From the NCBI GenBank assembly GCA_943842245.1, contig CALTAJ010000001.1, positions 310,001-374,000 of the forward strand: DNA of 64,000 nt, given 5' to 3'. The notes under the pieces were generated by a model. The model did no database searches and had not been told where the DNA came from. It saw only the letters and a list, made by a program, of their open reading frames with translations. Both the position numbers and the translations under genes were made by a program. The stretch comes from an uncultured Flavobacteriaceae bacterium (GTDB taxonomy: Bacteria; Bacteroidota; Bacteroidia; Flavobacteriales; Flavobacteriaceae). Numbering within the stretch: position 1 is the first letter of the stretch; each line of letters opens with the position of its first letter. Positions 23,586-63,064 of this stretch are shown in pieces.

Positions 23586-25046
23586 CTAGTCTAAGTTTAA
23601 AAATATTTGTTTTGCAATTTTTAGATCACTAAAAGAATAATATTTCCCTTGGATCTCTTGGAAGGATTCATGTCCTTTTCCAGCAATTAAGACTACATCC
23701 CCATCCTGAGCCAACTCAGCTGAAGTGGCAATTGCTTCTTCTCTTAAAGTTATTTTTGATATTTTTTTAAAATTTTCTTGTGACACTCCATCTATCATCT
23801 GTGAGATAATCTTTTCTGGATCTTCATTGCGAGGATTATCAGAAGTGAAAATAACTTTATCGCTATGTTTTGAAGCTATTTGTCCCATTATTGGCCTTTT
23901 TTCTTGATCTCTATTTCCTCCACAACCTAAAAGAGTGAAAAGTTTTTCATTTCTAGTACGAATTTTATTTATCGTTTCTAATACATTTTCTAAAGCATTA
24001 GGCGTATGAGCATAATCAATTATTACTGTGATCCGATTTGGAGTTTGAAATATTTGAAAACGTCCCTCAACATTTTTAAGGCAACTGATTTGTTTTAAAA
24101 TATCTAATTGAGAAAATTCAAAAAGTTCTGCAACAGCATAAACAGCCAAAATATTTTGCATATTAAAACCACCAACTAAGCTAGTCCAAACTTCTTGGTT
24201 TTTTATTTTTATAAGCATGCCAGAAAATTGTTGTTCAAGAAGCTTTGCTTTATAATCAGCATTTTGTTGAATAGCATAAGTATATTTTTTTGCCTTAGTA
24301 TTTTGAAGCATAAAAGCACCATTTTTATCGTCTAAATTTGTCAATGCAAACGCATTTTCAGGTAAAGTGTCAAAAAATGATTTCTTAGTATCTCTATAAT
24401 TTTTAAAATCTCCGTGATAATCTAAATGATCATGAGTTAAATTAGTAAATACTCCTCCCGAGAAAGCTAATCCTTCAGTTCGAAATTGATTTATTCCATG
24501 AGATGATACTTCCATAAAACAGTGAGTGATACCCAATTTTAGCATATTATTCAGATGTACATTTAATGATAGAGCATCTGGAGTAGTGAAGCTATTATTA
24601 TAAACTTTATCTCCGTACTGAATCTTTACTGTAGAAAATAATCCACAATCACATCCTTGTTTAGTGAATAGTTCAAATAATAATGAAGCGATGGAGGTCT
24701 TACCGTTAGTTCCAGTGATACCTACCAATTTGATTTTTTCTGAAGGATTATCGTAAAAATTAGAAGCTATAATTCCTAAAGTTTTTGCTGTATTTTTTAC
24801 TAATACATAAACGACATTCTTCCCAAGTTCTTTAGGAATTAATTCACAAATAATCGCTTTTGCTCCTTTTTCTATGGCTTGTGAAATAAATTTATGACCG
24901 TCAACTTTTAATCCTTTTTGAGCTATATACAAGCTGTCTTTTTCAATAGTCCTACTATCAAAGCTCAGCGATGAAATCTCTGTATTAGGGTTTCCATAAA
25001 TCCCTTCAATTTCTACCTTATATAGTATGTCCTGTAATTTTTTTAT
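23586..25046 (-). CDS. murE: UDP-MurNAc-L-Ala-D-Glu--2,6-diaminopimelate ligase, apparent ATA start
   Basis: Adds meso-diaminopimelate to the nucleotide precursor; the substrate is shown by DNPRNEDP near residue 400. ATP loop [10 protein letters not shown] is near 109. The first ATG/GTG/TTG-type codon in frame (TTG at 24932) would remove 38 residues including the conserved SFDSR of the UDP-binding domain. Extending upstream restores a full N-terminus reading [14 protein letters not shown] after an ATA codon at 25046-25044. This gives 486 aa, the usual length. The ATA overlaps the TAA stop of ftsI as ATAA, in exactly the geometry of an ATGA junction. No ATG, GTG or TTG exists between the upstream in-frame stop and SFDSR. 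Either a non-AUG start is used or one base is wrong. Confidence 0.9.
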
Positions 25047-27022
25047 GATAATTCTAAAATTATTTGTTGTTTATTGTGAATCAGTGATCCTGGTTTAAGA
25101 GATTGTGATTTAACTGACCCTGATCCTTTTATTTTAATCTTTAAACCGCTTTTTTTAACTCTTTCAAGAGCTTCTAATTCTGGTAAACCAGTAACATCTG
25201 GAACAACATCCTTTGATTTTACACTTAAAGCTTCTAAATCTTTTTTAGATACGTTCACCTGGTAAGGAGTATCATTAAATATTTTTTTAGCAATAGTCTT
25301 AAAAATAGGAGCAGCGACGGTAGCTCCGTAATAACCAATAGATTTATTGGGTTTATGAATCACTACAATACAAGAATATTTTGGATTTTCAACAGGATAG
25401 TACCCTACAAAACTTGAAATATATTGTACATCCTTTTTTGTATAATCAACCTGTCCAGTTCCTGTTTTTCCTGCCATTTTGAGCAATGGGTCTTTAATAC
25501 TATGGGCAGTTCCCCAATTCTTATCTACAACGTTAAACAACATTTTTCTAACCTTATCTAAAGTTTCTTTTGAGCAAATCGATGGATTTAAAACTTGTTT
25601 TGAAAAAACTTGAGTAGGTGTATTTCCAAAATTGCTAATTTGATTTAAAAATCTAGGCTTTACCATTTCACCGTTATTAGCAATAGCATTATAAAAAGCT
25701 AAAATTTGAAGTGGAGTAAAACTAACTCCATAGCCGTATGCCATCCAAGGTAAATCTAAACCATCCCAATCAGAATCTTCAGGATAAGGAATCTTTGGGA
25801 GACCCTCACCTAAAATGGGGATTCCCAGAGGTTTATTAAGTCCCATATTATACAATCTATCTACAAACTGCTTGGGATTGTCTTTATAATGATCGTATAT
25901 AATTTTAACTAATCCGACGTTTGAAGAAACCTCAAAAGCTTTTGCAGCTGTAAGGATTCCATAACCACCTCTTTTTGAATCCTTAACCTTATACTTGCCA
26001 TAAAACACCATTTCGCCTGTTCCAGTATCTATGTTAGATTCTTCATTGATCACGTTATCTTCTAAAGCAGCGATCATACCCATTAACTTAAAAGTTGAAC
26101 CTGGTTCAAATGTTTCTCCTACTGCATAATTTAATTTTTCGAAATACTTTCCATCTTTAGTTCGACCTAAATTAGCAATAGCTTTAATAGCGCCAGAATT
26201 AACTTCCATTACCACTACTGTACCGTGATCAGCTTTAAATTTTTCAAGTTGAGAAAGCAACGCATTATGAGTAATATCTTGAATATTGACATCAATTGTG
26301 GTGAATAAATCAAACCCTTCTGTAGGCTCTTTTTCATTTGAATCACTAATTGGCTTCCAATGTCCATTAGCAATTTTTTGTTTCAATCGCAATCCTTTAT
26401 CACCACGTAAATATTGAGAAAATGCACCTTCTAAACCGACTCTAAAATAAGTACCATCTTTATCTTTTTTCTCGTAACCTATGGTTCTCTCAGCAATTTT
26501 CCCAAGGGGATTTTCACGCTTAATTTCTTGTTCTACAATTAAACCTCCTTTAAATGTATTTTGATTAAAAATGGGAAAATTTTTATAACGTTTTAATTGA
26601 TAATACGAAAGATCTTCATCTATTAATAGGTATCTATTTTTTTGTAAACGAGCTTGTTCGATCATTTTCAAAATCTGAGCTGACGATTTAATACTAATCA
26701 TTGCAATGGAATCTGCAAGAGCTTTTTTGTATGAATTAAATAAATATTCTGAAGGTGTAACCGTATCCCAATATAATTCGTAACGGGATATTGAAGTTGC
26801 TAATATATTCCCGTCTGCAGCATATATATTACCTCGACTTGGCTCTAAAACAATATTTTTAACAAGTGAATCAGGTTCAAGTCCTAATCCTAAATCATTT
26901 TCATAAAACTGGATATAAATGAGTTTACCAATTAAGAATAAAGCAAATATGAACAGACTAATCGCAATCATGTAAAACCGATTCATTATTAATTGCTGTG
27001 CAGGTCTTGATTCTTTATTCAT
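25043..27022 (-). CDS. ftsI: Class B penicillin-binding protein (FtsI/PBP3) with PASTA domain
   Basis: Septal peptidoglycan transpeptidase partnering FtsW. The 659-aa protein has a membrane anchor at ~14-33, a PBP dimerisation/pedestal domain (RGNIYAADGNILA near 60), and a transpeptidase domain with SxxK in PGSTFKL (~306), SSN near 368 and KTGTGQ near 516. A single C-terminal PASTA domain spans ~600-659 (VVPDVTGLPELEALE). A single PASTA domain on FtsI is a known feature of this phylum. It overlaps ftsL by 8 nt. Confidence 0.95.
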   Translation of the reverse strand: MNKESRPAQQLIMNRFYMIAISLFIFALFLIGKLIYIQFYENDLGLGLEPDSLVKNIVLEPSRGNIYAADGNILATSISRYELYWDTVTPSEYLFNSYKKALADSIAMISIKSSAQILKMIEQARLQKNRYLLIDEDLSYYQLKRYKNFPIFNQNTFKGGLIVEQEIKRENPLGKIAERTIGYEKKDKDGTYFRVGLEGAFSQYLRGDKGLRLKQKIANGHWKPISDSNEKEPTEGFDLFTTIDVNIQDITHNALLSQLEKFKADHGTVVVMEVNSGAIKAIANLGRTKDGKYFEKLNYAVGETFEPGSTFKLMGMIAALEDNVINEESNIDTGTGEMVFYGKYKVKDSKRGGYGILTAAKAFEVSSNVGLVKIIYDHYKDNPKQFVDRLYNMGLNKPLGIPILGEGLPKIPYPEDSDWDGLDLPWMAYGYGVSFTPLQILAFYNAIANNGEMVKPRFLNQISNFGNTPTQVFSKQVLNPSICSKETLDKVRKMLFNVVDKNWGTAHSIKDPLLKMAGKTGTGQVDYTKKDVQYISSFVGYYPVENPKYSCIVVIHKPNKSIGYYGATVAAPIFKTIAKKIFNDTPYQVNVSKKDLEALSVKSKDVVPDVTGLPELEALERVKKSGLKIKIKGSGSVKSQSLKPGSLIHNKQQIILELS

Positions 27023-60067: not shown

Positions 60068-61726
60068 ATGAAAGTGAGTAACTTAAAATTATTTTCAATC
60101 ATATTCATTGGGATGCTCATCTTTTCCGGTTGTGGTGGAGGTAGTAACGCTTCTCGTGGTACAGGTTGGGATATAAATTCTAAAAAAGGTGGATTTCAAT
60201 ATAATACAGATTTTGATGACCAAGAAACAGGACCAGGTTTAGTATTTATTGAAGGTGGTACCTTTACAAAAGGTCAAGTTCAAGATGATGTTATGAGAGA
60301 TTGGAACAACTCACCCTCTAAACAACATGTTATGTCGTTTTATATCGACGAAACTGAAGTTACTAATATGATGTACATGGAATACCTTGACTGGTTAGAA
60401 TTTGTTTTTCCAACAAACGAAACTCGTTATCGACAAATTTACGAAGGAGCTCTTCCTGACACTCTTGTTTGGAGAAATCAATTAGGATATGTTGAAGAAC
60501 TAACTGCTAATTATTTACGCCATCCGGCATACGCTGAATATCCTGTAGTTGGAGTAAATTGGCTTCAAGCAGTTCAATATGCCGAATGGAGAACCGATCG
60601 TGTAAATGAATTTATTTTGGAGAGAGAATCTTTTGTTCAAAAAGATGTTCGCTATAACGAGGTTGGTACTAATAGCACATTCAATACACAAGCATACTTA
60701 AAAAGACCTGAGACAACTTATGGTAATAAAATGGACACATTAGCTGGTAAAAACTCGGAAGAAAAGAAAGGGGATTCAATAGTAAAAGTATATGCAGGTG
60801 TTGAAAAAGGAATTCTCCTACCCTCATATAGACTTCCTACAGAGGCAGAATGGGAATACGCTGCTTTATCATTAGTTGGAGATAGAGAATACAATAATTA
60901 TCGTGGAAAGAAGAAATACCCTTGGTCTGGAGAATACACCAGGTCTAGTGATAGACGTACTGAAGGTGATCAGCTAGCAAATTTTAAATTAGGGAAAGGA
61001 GATTACGGAGGAATTGCTGGATGGTCTGATGACGGTGCTGACATCACCATACAAGTAAAACAATACCCTCCAAATGATTTTGGTGTTTTCGATATGGCTG
61101 GAAATGTTTCCGAATGGGTATCTGACGTATACAGGCCTATTGTTGACGATGAAGCAAGTGACTTCAATTATTATCGCGGTAATATATATACAAAAACTTT
61201 AATAGGAGAAGACGGTAAAGCACAAATAGTGGCAGCAGATGAGCTTGTATTTGATACACTTCCAAATGGAAAAGTATTACTCAAACGTTTACCCGGTGAA
61301 CTTGAAGAAATTGCCATTGATGAAAATGAAACTTTTTTACGCCAAAATTTTTCAGAGAGTGACAATCGAAATTTTAGAGATGGAGATACTGAGTCTTCTA
61401 GGAATTTTGCAGCAGGAAAAAGAGATTTAGACGATAGTTCCAAACCAGAAACAACCCAAATGTACGATGCTCCTACCCCTCCTAAAATCGTAGATGGCAT
61501 TCGAGAATATGACAAGAATTCTAAAAGAACTACGCTAATTACTGATGAAGTACGTGTTTACAAAGGAGGTTCTTGGAAAGATCGTGCTTACTGGCTAGAT
61601 CCTGCACAAAGAAGATATTTACCTCAATATATAGCTACGGACTACATCGGGTTTAGGTGCGCTATGTCACGATTAGGATCTAAAAGTCAAGTCAAGAAAA
61701 CTGCTCGTCACAAAAGACGCGGTTAA
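60068..61726 (+). CDS. gldJ: Gliding motility lipoprotein GldJ
   Basis: 552-aa lipoprotein of the gliding/type IX machinery. From ATG 60068 there is a signal peptide with lipobox FSGC at about residue 23, then a formylglycine-generating-enzyme/sulfatase-modifying fold: FIEGGTF near 67, DETEVTNMMYMEYLDWL near 97, YRLPTEAEWEYAAL near 257, DFGVFDMAGNVSEWVSD near 338 and the final GGSWKD...GFRCAMSRLG. The GldJ-type insert and basic C-terminal tail (KKTARHKRRG) are present; the tail is reported to matter for gliding in F. johnsoniae. GldJ is a structural paralogue of GldK and has no known enzymatic role. A frame from 60041 adds nine residues and is less likely. Confidence 0.93.
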   Translation: MKVSNLKLFSIIFIGMLIFSGCGGGSNASRGTGWDINSKKGGFQYNTDFDDQETGPGLVFIEGGTFTKGQVQDDVMRDWNNSPSKQHVMSFYIDETEVTNMMYMEYLDWLEFVFPTNETRYRQIYEGALPDTLVWRNQLGYVEELTANYLRHPAYAEYPVVGVNWLQAVQYAEWRTDRVNEFILERESFVQKDVRYNEVGTNSTFNTQAYLKRPETTYGNKMDTLAGKNSEEKKGDSIVKVYAGVEKGILLPSYRLPTEAEWEYAALSLVGDREYNNYRGKKKYPWSGEYTRSSDRRTEGDQLANFKLGKGDYGGIAGWSDDGADITIQVKQYPPNDFGVFDMAGNVSEWVSDVYRPIVDDEASDFNYYRGNIYTKTLIGEDGKAQIVAADELVFDTLPNGKVLLKRLPGELEEIAIDENETFLRQNFSESDNRNFRDGDTESSRNFAAGKRDLDDSSKPETTQMYDAPTPPKIVDGIREYDKNSKRTTLITDEVRVYKGGSWKDRAYWLDPAQRRYLPQYIATDYIGFRCAMSRLGSKSQVKKTARHKRRG

Positions 61727-61738
61727 AACTAAAGAATC

Positions 61739-61767
61739 AAGCATCTTACTTAAGATGCTTTTTTTTT
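61739..61767 (+). terminator. Rho-independent terminator between gldJ and murF
   Basis: AAGCATCTT (61739-61747) pairs with AAGATGCTT (61752-61760) around a 4-nt loop, and the T-run (9 T) ends at 61767. The murF ATG is only 3 bases further on, so murF either depends on readthrough or has a promoter inside the end of gldJ. Confidence 0.88.
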
Positions 61768-61770
61768 ACC

Positions 61771-62664
61771 ATGGAGATACAAAAACTTTATAGAATCTTT
61801 TTAAATTCAAAGGGAGTTTCAACTGACACTAGAACTCTGCAAAAAGGAACAATATTTTTTGCATTAAGTGGACCTAATTTTGATGGTAACCAATATGCTG
61901 AAAATGCAATAGAAAAAGGGGCTTCTTTTGTAGTTGTCGATAAGCTTGATTCAATTGAATTAAATTCTCAAGTTATTTTTGTAAAAAATACTCTTACTGT
62001 TCTTCAGAAATTAGCTACTCATCATAGAAAAATATTGAATATTCCAATTATTGCTATTACAGGAAGCAATGGTAAGACAACTACTAAAGAATTGATTCGT
62101 GAAGTCCTTTCTAAAAAATTTAATGTTCTTGCTACAAAAGGAAATTTTAATAATCACATTGGCGTCCCTTTGACACTCCTTAAATTAACCAAAAAACATG
62201 AAATTGGAATAATCGAGATGGGAGCTAATCATTTAAGTGAAATACAATTACTTAGTGATATTTCTCTTCCCAATTGGGGATATATTACAAATTTTGGAAA
62301 AGCTCATCTAGAAGGTTTTGGGGGTAAAGAGGGAGTGATACAGGGAAAATCTGAATTATACAAACACCTTGTCCTCAATGACGGCCAAATTCTAATCAAT
62401 GGTAATGATCCTGAACAAGTAAAGCAAACCAGAAACCAAAAAGTAATTCAATTTGGTAGTCAAGAAATTCATGATTTTAAAATAAATTTCACTTCAAAAA
62501 ATAGTGGAATTCAACTCGAATTCCAAGGACTAAATTTTAAAAGTCCTCTACATGGAGATTATAATTTGACCAATATTGCAGCATCAATTGCTTTTGGAGT
62601 AATCTTTAAGGTTAAATTAATTAATATTCAAAATGCTATTGTCAGAGTATCAGTCAGAAAATAA
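61771..62664 (+). CDS. murF: MurF, N-terminal and central domains (frame-disrupted)
   Basis: UDP-MurNAc-tripeptide--D-Ala-D-Ala ligase, last cytoplasmic step of the peptidoglycan precursor. This 297-aa frame carries STDTRTL near 19, the ATP loop ITGSNGKTTTKEL near 96, GNFNNHIGVPLTLL near 126, EMGANHLSEI near 148 and NFGKAHLEGFGG near 176. It ends abruptly: after NIQNAI the reading goes out of frame near 62641-62645 and meets TAA at 62662. The remainder of MurF continues in the +1 frame. Without one base near there, a single ~430-aa protein of normal length results. Confidence 0.9.
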   Translation: MEIQKLYRIFLNSKGVSTDTRTLQKGTIFFALSGPNFDGNQYAENAIEKGASFVVVDKLDSIELNSQVIFVKNTLTVLQKLATHHRKILNIPIIAITGSNGKTTTKELIREVLSKKFNVLATKGNFNNHIGVPLTLLKLTKKHEIGIIEMGANHLSEIQLLSDISLPNWGYITNFGKAHLEGFGGKEGVIQGKSELYKHLVLNDGQILINGNDPEQVKQTRNQKVIQFGSQEIHDFKINFTSKNSGIQLEFQGLNFKSPLHGDYNLTNIAASIAFGVIFKVKLINIQNAIVRVSVRK

Positions 62665-63064
62665 TCGTTCCCAAAAGTTGAAAATTGGTAATGTTGAATA
62701 CGTTTTAGATGCTTACAATGCAAATCCAAGTAGTATGGAAGCTGCTTTAAAAGCTTTTTCAGAAAATAAATCTAATTCTAAAACAGTTATTTTAGGCGAT
62801 ATGCTAGAATTGGGAATTTATAGTAAAGAAGAACATGAAAATATACTAAAGCTTTGTCTTGAATATAAATTTAACAATATTTTTACTATAGGGAATCATT
62901 TTAATACTACATCAATTAAAGCTAAGGAGATAATTAAATTTGAAAGAATAGAGGTATTTAAAAAATATTTAAAAAAACAAAATATTCTATTTGATTTTGT
63001 CTTAATCAAAGGTTCACGTGCTCTCAAATTAGAGGATTTGATCCCATTTTTAAAATCAAAATAA
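62633..63064 (+). CDS. murF: MurF, C-terminal domain (continuation in the +1 frame)
   Basis: The frame contains SEYQSENNRSQ, YVLDAYNANPSSMEAALKAF, VILGDMLELG and the C-terminal LIKGSRALKLEDL, all typical of the last third of MurF. It overlaps the first part by 32 nt. An ATG at 62633 exists but lies out of register with the family, so independent translation is unlikely unless the protein really is split at the central/C-terminal domain boundary. Sequencing or assembly error, a recent mutation and frameshifting are the options. Confidence 0.85.
   Translation: MLLSEYQSENNRSQKLKIGNVEYVLDAYNANPSSMEAALKAFSENKSNSKTVILGDMLELGIYSKEEHENILKLCLEYKFNNIFTIGNHFNTTSIKAKEIIKFERIEVFKKYLKKQNILFDFVLIKGSRALKLEDLIPFLKSK

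Follow-up and report, generated by a model that had tools for sequence, protein, structure and literature searches.

A conserved ATA codon in the start position of murE, overlapping the ftsI stop codon, in a clade of Flavobacteriaceae

The murE gene of an uncultured Flavobacteriaceae bacterium (GenBank assembly GCA_943842245.1, contig CALTAJ010000001.1) raises the question of where, and at which codon, its translation begins. The gene is encoded on the minus strand of the window, i.e. the whole stretch of 64,000 nucleotides that was analysed (positions 310,001–374,000 of the contig), downstream of ftsI, which codes for a penicillin-binding transpeptidase (25043–27022, minus strand) and whose terminating ribosomes would supply murE. 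The minus strand reads TATCATAAAA at 25050–25041. The 3' end of ftsI is GAA TTA TCA TAA, and the murE frame, which at the junction is shifted by -1 relative to ftsI, runs ATT ATC ATA AAA AAA TTA CAG GAC ATA. An ATA (25044–25046) occupies the start column of murE and shares bases with the ftsI stop codon TAA (25045–25043) in an ATAA stop/start overlap (25043–25046), as the first-pass annotation of this DNA had described. Its claim that murE lacks a canonical start codon is likewise confirmed: none occurs among the eight codons (ACA ACA AAT AAT TTT AGA ATT ATC) that separate the ATA from the TAA stop upstream in its frame, and the 38 codons from the ATA on are free of ATG, GTG and TTG, the first canonical codon being the TTG at codon 39 (24930–24932).

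Counted from the ATA, murE comprises 486 codons to its stop (23586–25046, minus strand), and the model names its product a UDP-MurNAc-tripeptide synthetase of the meso-diaminopimelate-adding type. The NCBIfam profile NF001126 matches this product over its full length (residues 3–482; 598 bits, cut-off 373). The window genome (hereafter G000) contains this single full murE, and the gene is intact; the three other murE-like matches, 25–27% identical, are murF, murC and murD by their places. Among 58 open frames of the window (at least 90 codons, overlaps removed), the first canonical codon of murE stands 46 codons past the upstream stop, the deepest missing start apart from that of one frame truncated at the edge of the window (59). 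A piece of murF (29) and a small overlapping frame (25) come next, and every other frame has 14 or fewer.

A search of the genus returned a murE match in all 38 genomes, and in all but G011, which has just a 3' fragment of murE, the junction was readable (37 genomes); that of G016 was taken from a second piece (L235). The start column contains ATG in 13 genomes, GTG in 11, TTG in 10 and ATA in three. The ATA genomes, G000, G024 and G025, represent three species: the MurE proteins of G024 and G025 are 81% and 77% identical to that of G000, from which 17% and 22% of their murE bases differ. Both are draft genomes, 54% and 62% complete, and the record L035, most likely of the same genome as G024, has the same junction sequence. 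In 35 of the 37 loci the murE start and the ftsI stop overlap, in the form of ATGA (13), GTGA (11), TTGA (8) or ATAA (3). A near-cognate codon at the start column of the homologues, with no canonical codon nearby, is found in G000 (next canonical codon at 39) and in G025 (TTG at codon 27), whereas G024 has a TTG at codon 8 and a GTG at codon 11.

Beyond the genus, 100 family genomes from 100 genera were searched and murE was found in 98, G000 among them. The other 97 were all read, and every one of them has ATG, GTG or TTG at column -1, 0 or +1, the murE start overlapping the ftsI stop in 77. At the level of the class, 144 of 149 genomes have murE, and a canonical codon is located at the start column or a few codons before it in each of the 69 loci read (29 + 40, including L337, L339 and L340 from the same family as the window). 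A pattern search for ATA starts on murE across the family was rejected as a source of further cases. It gave matches in 45 of 397 genomes, with 51 places listed; among the 30 places read as loci only L171 (in G089) was murE, with an ATG one codon upstream, the rest being chance matches, and one of the other 21 was the window's own murE. A matching NTG pattern was found in 125 of 299 genomes. The pattern is therefore insensitive, and direct reading of the start columns was used instead.

A maximum-likelihood tree of 36 MurE proteins from the genus and three outgroups places the three ATA rows in one clade (support 99/96), with G002 and G028 as its sister (fork 100/99). The sister clade reads ATGA at the junction (TATCATGA). 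Because the ATA rows form one clade with an ATGA sister, one G-to-A change explains all three, which agrees with the earlier proposal that a single such change in ATGA would suffice; the breadth of this evidence is three species and one evolutionary event. The fourfold sites of murE differ among the three species by 40%, 54% and 49%, and the retention of the ATA over this divergence implies that the state has been held for a long time. The comparison with sister strains suggested by the first-pass annotation favours a genuine ATA, since the two closest relatives among the genomes compared have ATAA and ATGA appears in the next clade out. The ATA looks like a real, inherited change, and a sequencing error is made very unlikely by the sister genomes. 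Across the genus tree (loci L005–L034 and L228–L235), murE genes with ATG, GTG or TTG starts group for the most part by clade, so the start codon of this gene changes rarely and is inherited.

The initiation machinery of the ATA clade looks ordinary as judged from its genes. The tRNA search of G000 yielded 36 matches, 35 of them named by ARAGORN; none has the anticodon TAT, for a search that scored 150 of 201 first-look candidates and so does not fully exclude a rare extra tRNA. The remaining match, the weakest (30 bits, L419), was not recognised as a tRNA. All three tRNA-Met genes found in G000 have the anticodon CAT. In one of them (L210), position 1 is a C opposite the T at 72 and the anticodon stem is GGG/CCC, features that we take to be those expected of an initiator tRNA; copies of this gene identical at 72 of 73 bases, with the anticodon CAT, are present in G024 (L420) and G025 (L423). 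At columns conserved to 90% or more in 59 other sequences, the IF3 proteins of G000 and G024 have no change; no infC was found in the 62% complete assembly of G025. Neither an altered initiator-like tRNA in the three species nor a clade-specific IF3 change in G000 and G024 was found.

The gene of IF3 itself seems to offer a second case of a missing canonical start. All 31 infC matches of the genus (L119–L148, L304) and 30 of the 59 matching family genomes (L307–L336) were read, and the 61 loci without exception have ATA-GCN at the position of M-A-I-R (GCA in 59, GCC in one, GCT in one). The infC of G000 is located on C2 near 442991–443494. In 59 of the 61 loci the open frame has no canonical codon upstream of the ATA. 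In the family, infC appears to start at AUA, judging by these frames, and AUA initiation would consequently be an inherited ability here. The near-cognate start of E. coli infC is AUU. A C directly precedes the infC ATA in 54 of the 61 loci. An ACATA motif shared by murE and infC was considered and discarded, as infC outside the genus mostly has GCCATA and only the preceding C is common to both genes. By eye, a stretch like AAGTTTAAYTWAAA is seen about 10–30 bases before the infC ATA in most loci (L119–L148, L307–L336); it is possibly a regulatory or initiation element.

We consider it likely that murE is translated by coupled re-initiation at the AUA, or at the adjacent AUU or AUC, after ftsI, in a manner that is probably sensitive to IF3. 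In the common ancestor of the three species, a G-to-A change would have made the ATGA overlap of ftsI and murE an ATAA, keeping the ftsI stop (TGA to TAA) and leaving murE with AUA as a near-cognate start. On terminating ftsI at UAA, ribosomes would have the AUA one base back and would re-initiate there, or at the adjacent AUC or AUU, using the ordinary initiator tRNA (anticodon CAU) and no Shine-Dalgarno sequence. By eye, no AGGAGG-like Shine-Dalgarno stretch is present upstream of murE in AATAATTTTAGAATTATC. The RNA structure at the junction is no stronger than that of shuffled sequence (z -0.09 in G000 and 0.13 in G024), and an Rfam search at the junction gave a single match, below the gathering score, that was judged to be due to chance. 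IF3 is expected to discriminate against AUA starts, and murE and infC would then answer to IF3 together, MurE output being dependent on ftsI translation and lowered by IF3. Initiation at the AUA, the coupling and the IF3 sensitivity are here inferred. The original observation on the murE ATA is confirmed, and its interpretation as a whole, in which the throttling of MurE is conjectural, is partly supported.

A tenable alternative, somewhat improbable on balance, is that the ATA is a neutral relic: coupling would supply enough ribosomes for the start codon hardly to matter, and TAA would have been favoured as the better stop for ftsI. In line with this proposal, one change serves both codons, and the ATA has lasted through changes at about half of the fourfold sites. 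However, column 1 is always ATG, GTG or TTG in the 34 other readable genomes of the genus, and never another near-cognate codon, which indicates that the identity of the start usually matters.

It is unlikely that murE starts instead at another in-frame codon, be it the upstream AUU or AUC, the AUA at codon 7, or a canonical TTG (codon 39 in G000, 8 in G024 and 27 in G025). The ATT and ATC lie directly 5' of the ATA (25047–25052, minus strand) in all three species, and the first-pass annotation was right to name them as real alternatives. Codon 7 is ATA in all three as well and is preceded by C in two of them, as is the infC ATA in the large majority of loci. Against these codons, the start column of the other genomes read coincides with codon 1 or its neighbour, and the AUU and AUC are by-products of the conserved C-terminus ELS of ftsI, which is encoded in the other frame. 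Because the same bases encode this ending, AUC and AUU are inseparable from the AUA by sequence. The canonical alternatives differ in place from species to species. In G000, the TTG at codon 39 lies behind the DSR motif (residue 30) and was for this reason judged not to be the start: it would cost 38 residues including the motif, so that initiation at this downstream TTG, which had been set against the ATA at first pass, is disfavoured in the window genome. The exact DSR string was not found in G025. In G024 and G025, a shortened MurE made from a canonical start is possible.

The seventh codon belongs to an element, GAC ATA at codons 6–7 of murE (25026–25031, minus strand), that is conserved at the nucleotide level. 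A codon alignment was made of 133 murE genes (36 from the genus and 97 from the family; the fragments L033 and L235 were left out). When its 481 columns are ranked by synonymous conservation in excess of the codon usage of each gene, codon 7 comes first and codon 6 second (z 15.7 and 15.5); these z values ignore kinship, and the weight is placed on how columns within the same genes rank against one another. Isoleucine at codon 7 is encoded by ATA in 26 of 28 genus rows (expected 8.5) and in 89 of 92 family rows (expected 30.5), and aspartate at codon 6 by GAC in 22 of 27 (expected 6.4) and 74 of 82 (expected 18.3), respectively. Of the 69 loci in the class sample, 64 were parsed; 44 have GAC ATA, and Ile is ATA in 54 of 61. 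The 26 full murE genes from other families show the same preference (ATA in 22 of 26, expected 7.3; GAC in 18 of 25, expected 6.7), and their four ATT cases at codon 7 are all GAT ATT. By comparison, only 6 of 103 Asp-Ile pairs in the open frames of the window are GAC ATA. Within the genus alone, where rows are closely related, codons 6 and 7 reach z 6.5 and 7.7 and are in the top eight of 465 columns without being extreme, and mraY, beside murE, has genus columns of up to z 7.8; the claim is based on the family set and the class sample, and not on the genus-only test. An overlapping gene was dismissed as the cause of this conservation, as four of the other frames are short (median 8–15 codons); the fifth frame across codons 6–7, which is antisense, has a median of 53 and a minimum of 5 codons. 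The ATA-start species keep the ATA of codon 7, and codon 6 is GAA in G024. That the C-AUA at these codons acts across the class as a further start under IF3 control, or as some other AUA-based signal for initiation or pausing, and so let the clade lose its canonical start at codon 1, is improbable. If it were true, murE and infC would form a small gene set controlled by AUA and IF3.

A sequencing or assembly error, with G as the true base and ATG as the start, is very improbable, unless one systematic error affects all three genomes alike. ATAA and ATGA differ by one substitution, and one place at least in the G000 assembly is doubtful: near 62.64 kb, murF (window 61684–63064, plus strand) breaks into two reading frames, whereas in G024 and G028 it occupies one frame, the split being either an assembly error or a broken gene. 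Such doubt about the assembly gives the sister genomes their importance for the ATA. The fault in murF, however, is a frame change and not a single-letter change, and ATAA recurs in two genomes that differ from G000 at 17% and 22% of murE bases. Hardly credible, finally, is a joining of FtsI and MurE by ribosomal frameshifting that leaves murE in need of no start: murE does lie in the -1 frame of ftsI, but TTA TCA TAA is not a slippery heptamer as these are generally known, the run of A stands after the stop, the structure does not exceed that of shuffles, and relatives have separate murE starts at the same column.

Coupled re-initiation at the AUA, if true, would mean that an essential cell-wall gene has kept an AUA start over speciation in a phylum seemingly without Shine-Dalgarno use. 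The murE case would test whether the coupling of stop and start is enough by itself to sustain a near-cognate start codon. A gene caller limited to ATG, GTG and TTG would shorten the MurE of G000 by 38 residues and, in the family, place the infC start wrongly. Among the titles and abstracts listed in searches of the open-licence literature, none describes an AUA start of murE or its GAC ATA element.

The closest parallel is infC, with AUU in E. coli and AUA in S. aureus: as there, murE has an in-frame AUA in place of AUG, in an essential gene, conserved across species. Unlike infC, murE does not encode IF3, so no loop of self-regulation arises; its AUA arose in one clade, it has no leader, and its start overlaps a stop. 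Natural AUA starts are rare. In the part of PMC13009471 available to us, AUA starts are given for S. aureus infC, where ribosome density marks the codon, and, outside infC, for ccpN and citZ, and murE would resemble the latter two as a natural AUA start in another gene. The same part of that source credits extended Shine-Dalgarno motifs to infC, cvfC1 and ccpN, which sets them apart from murE with no such stretch seen upstream; none was seen there for citZ, and a strong motif is not a general requirement of such starts. The ATAA junction resembles ATGA termination-reinitiation in its stop/start overlap, with the same order and spacing (PMC6728339 and PMC2268962, as far as the accessible parts of both go), and Bacteroidetes seem to use no Shine-Dalgarno motifs for re-initiation (PMC6728339, same part). 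In E. coli, according to the accessible part of PMC2268962, ribosomes can re-initiate at non-AUG codons when initiator tRNAs with mutated anticodons match them, and extra IF3 inhibits the process. The murE case differs in that AUA would be read by an initiator-like tRNA with its normal anticodon. A recJ mutant with a GUA start is affected by IF3 mutations (Haggerty and Lovett 1997, as cited in the accessible part of PMC2268962). Like murE as proposed here, it combines a non-canonical start with an apparent coupling to an upstream frame, its output being IF3-dependent; unlike the murE ATA, a natural and conserved state, the recJ GUA is a laboratory mutant.
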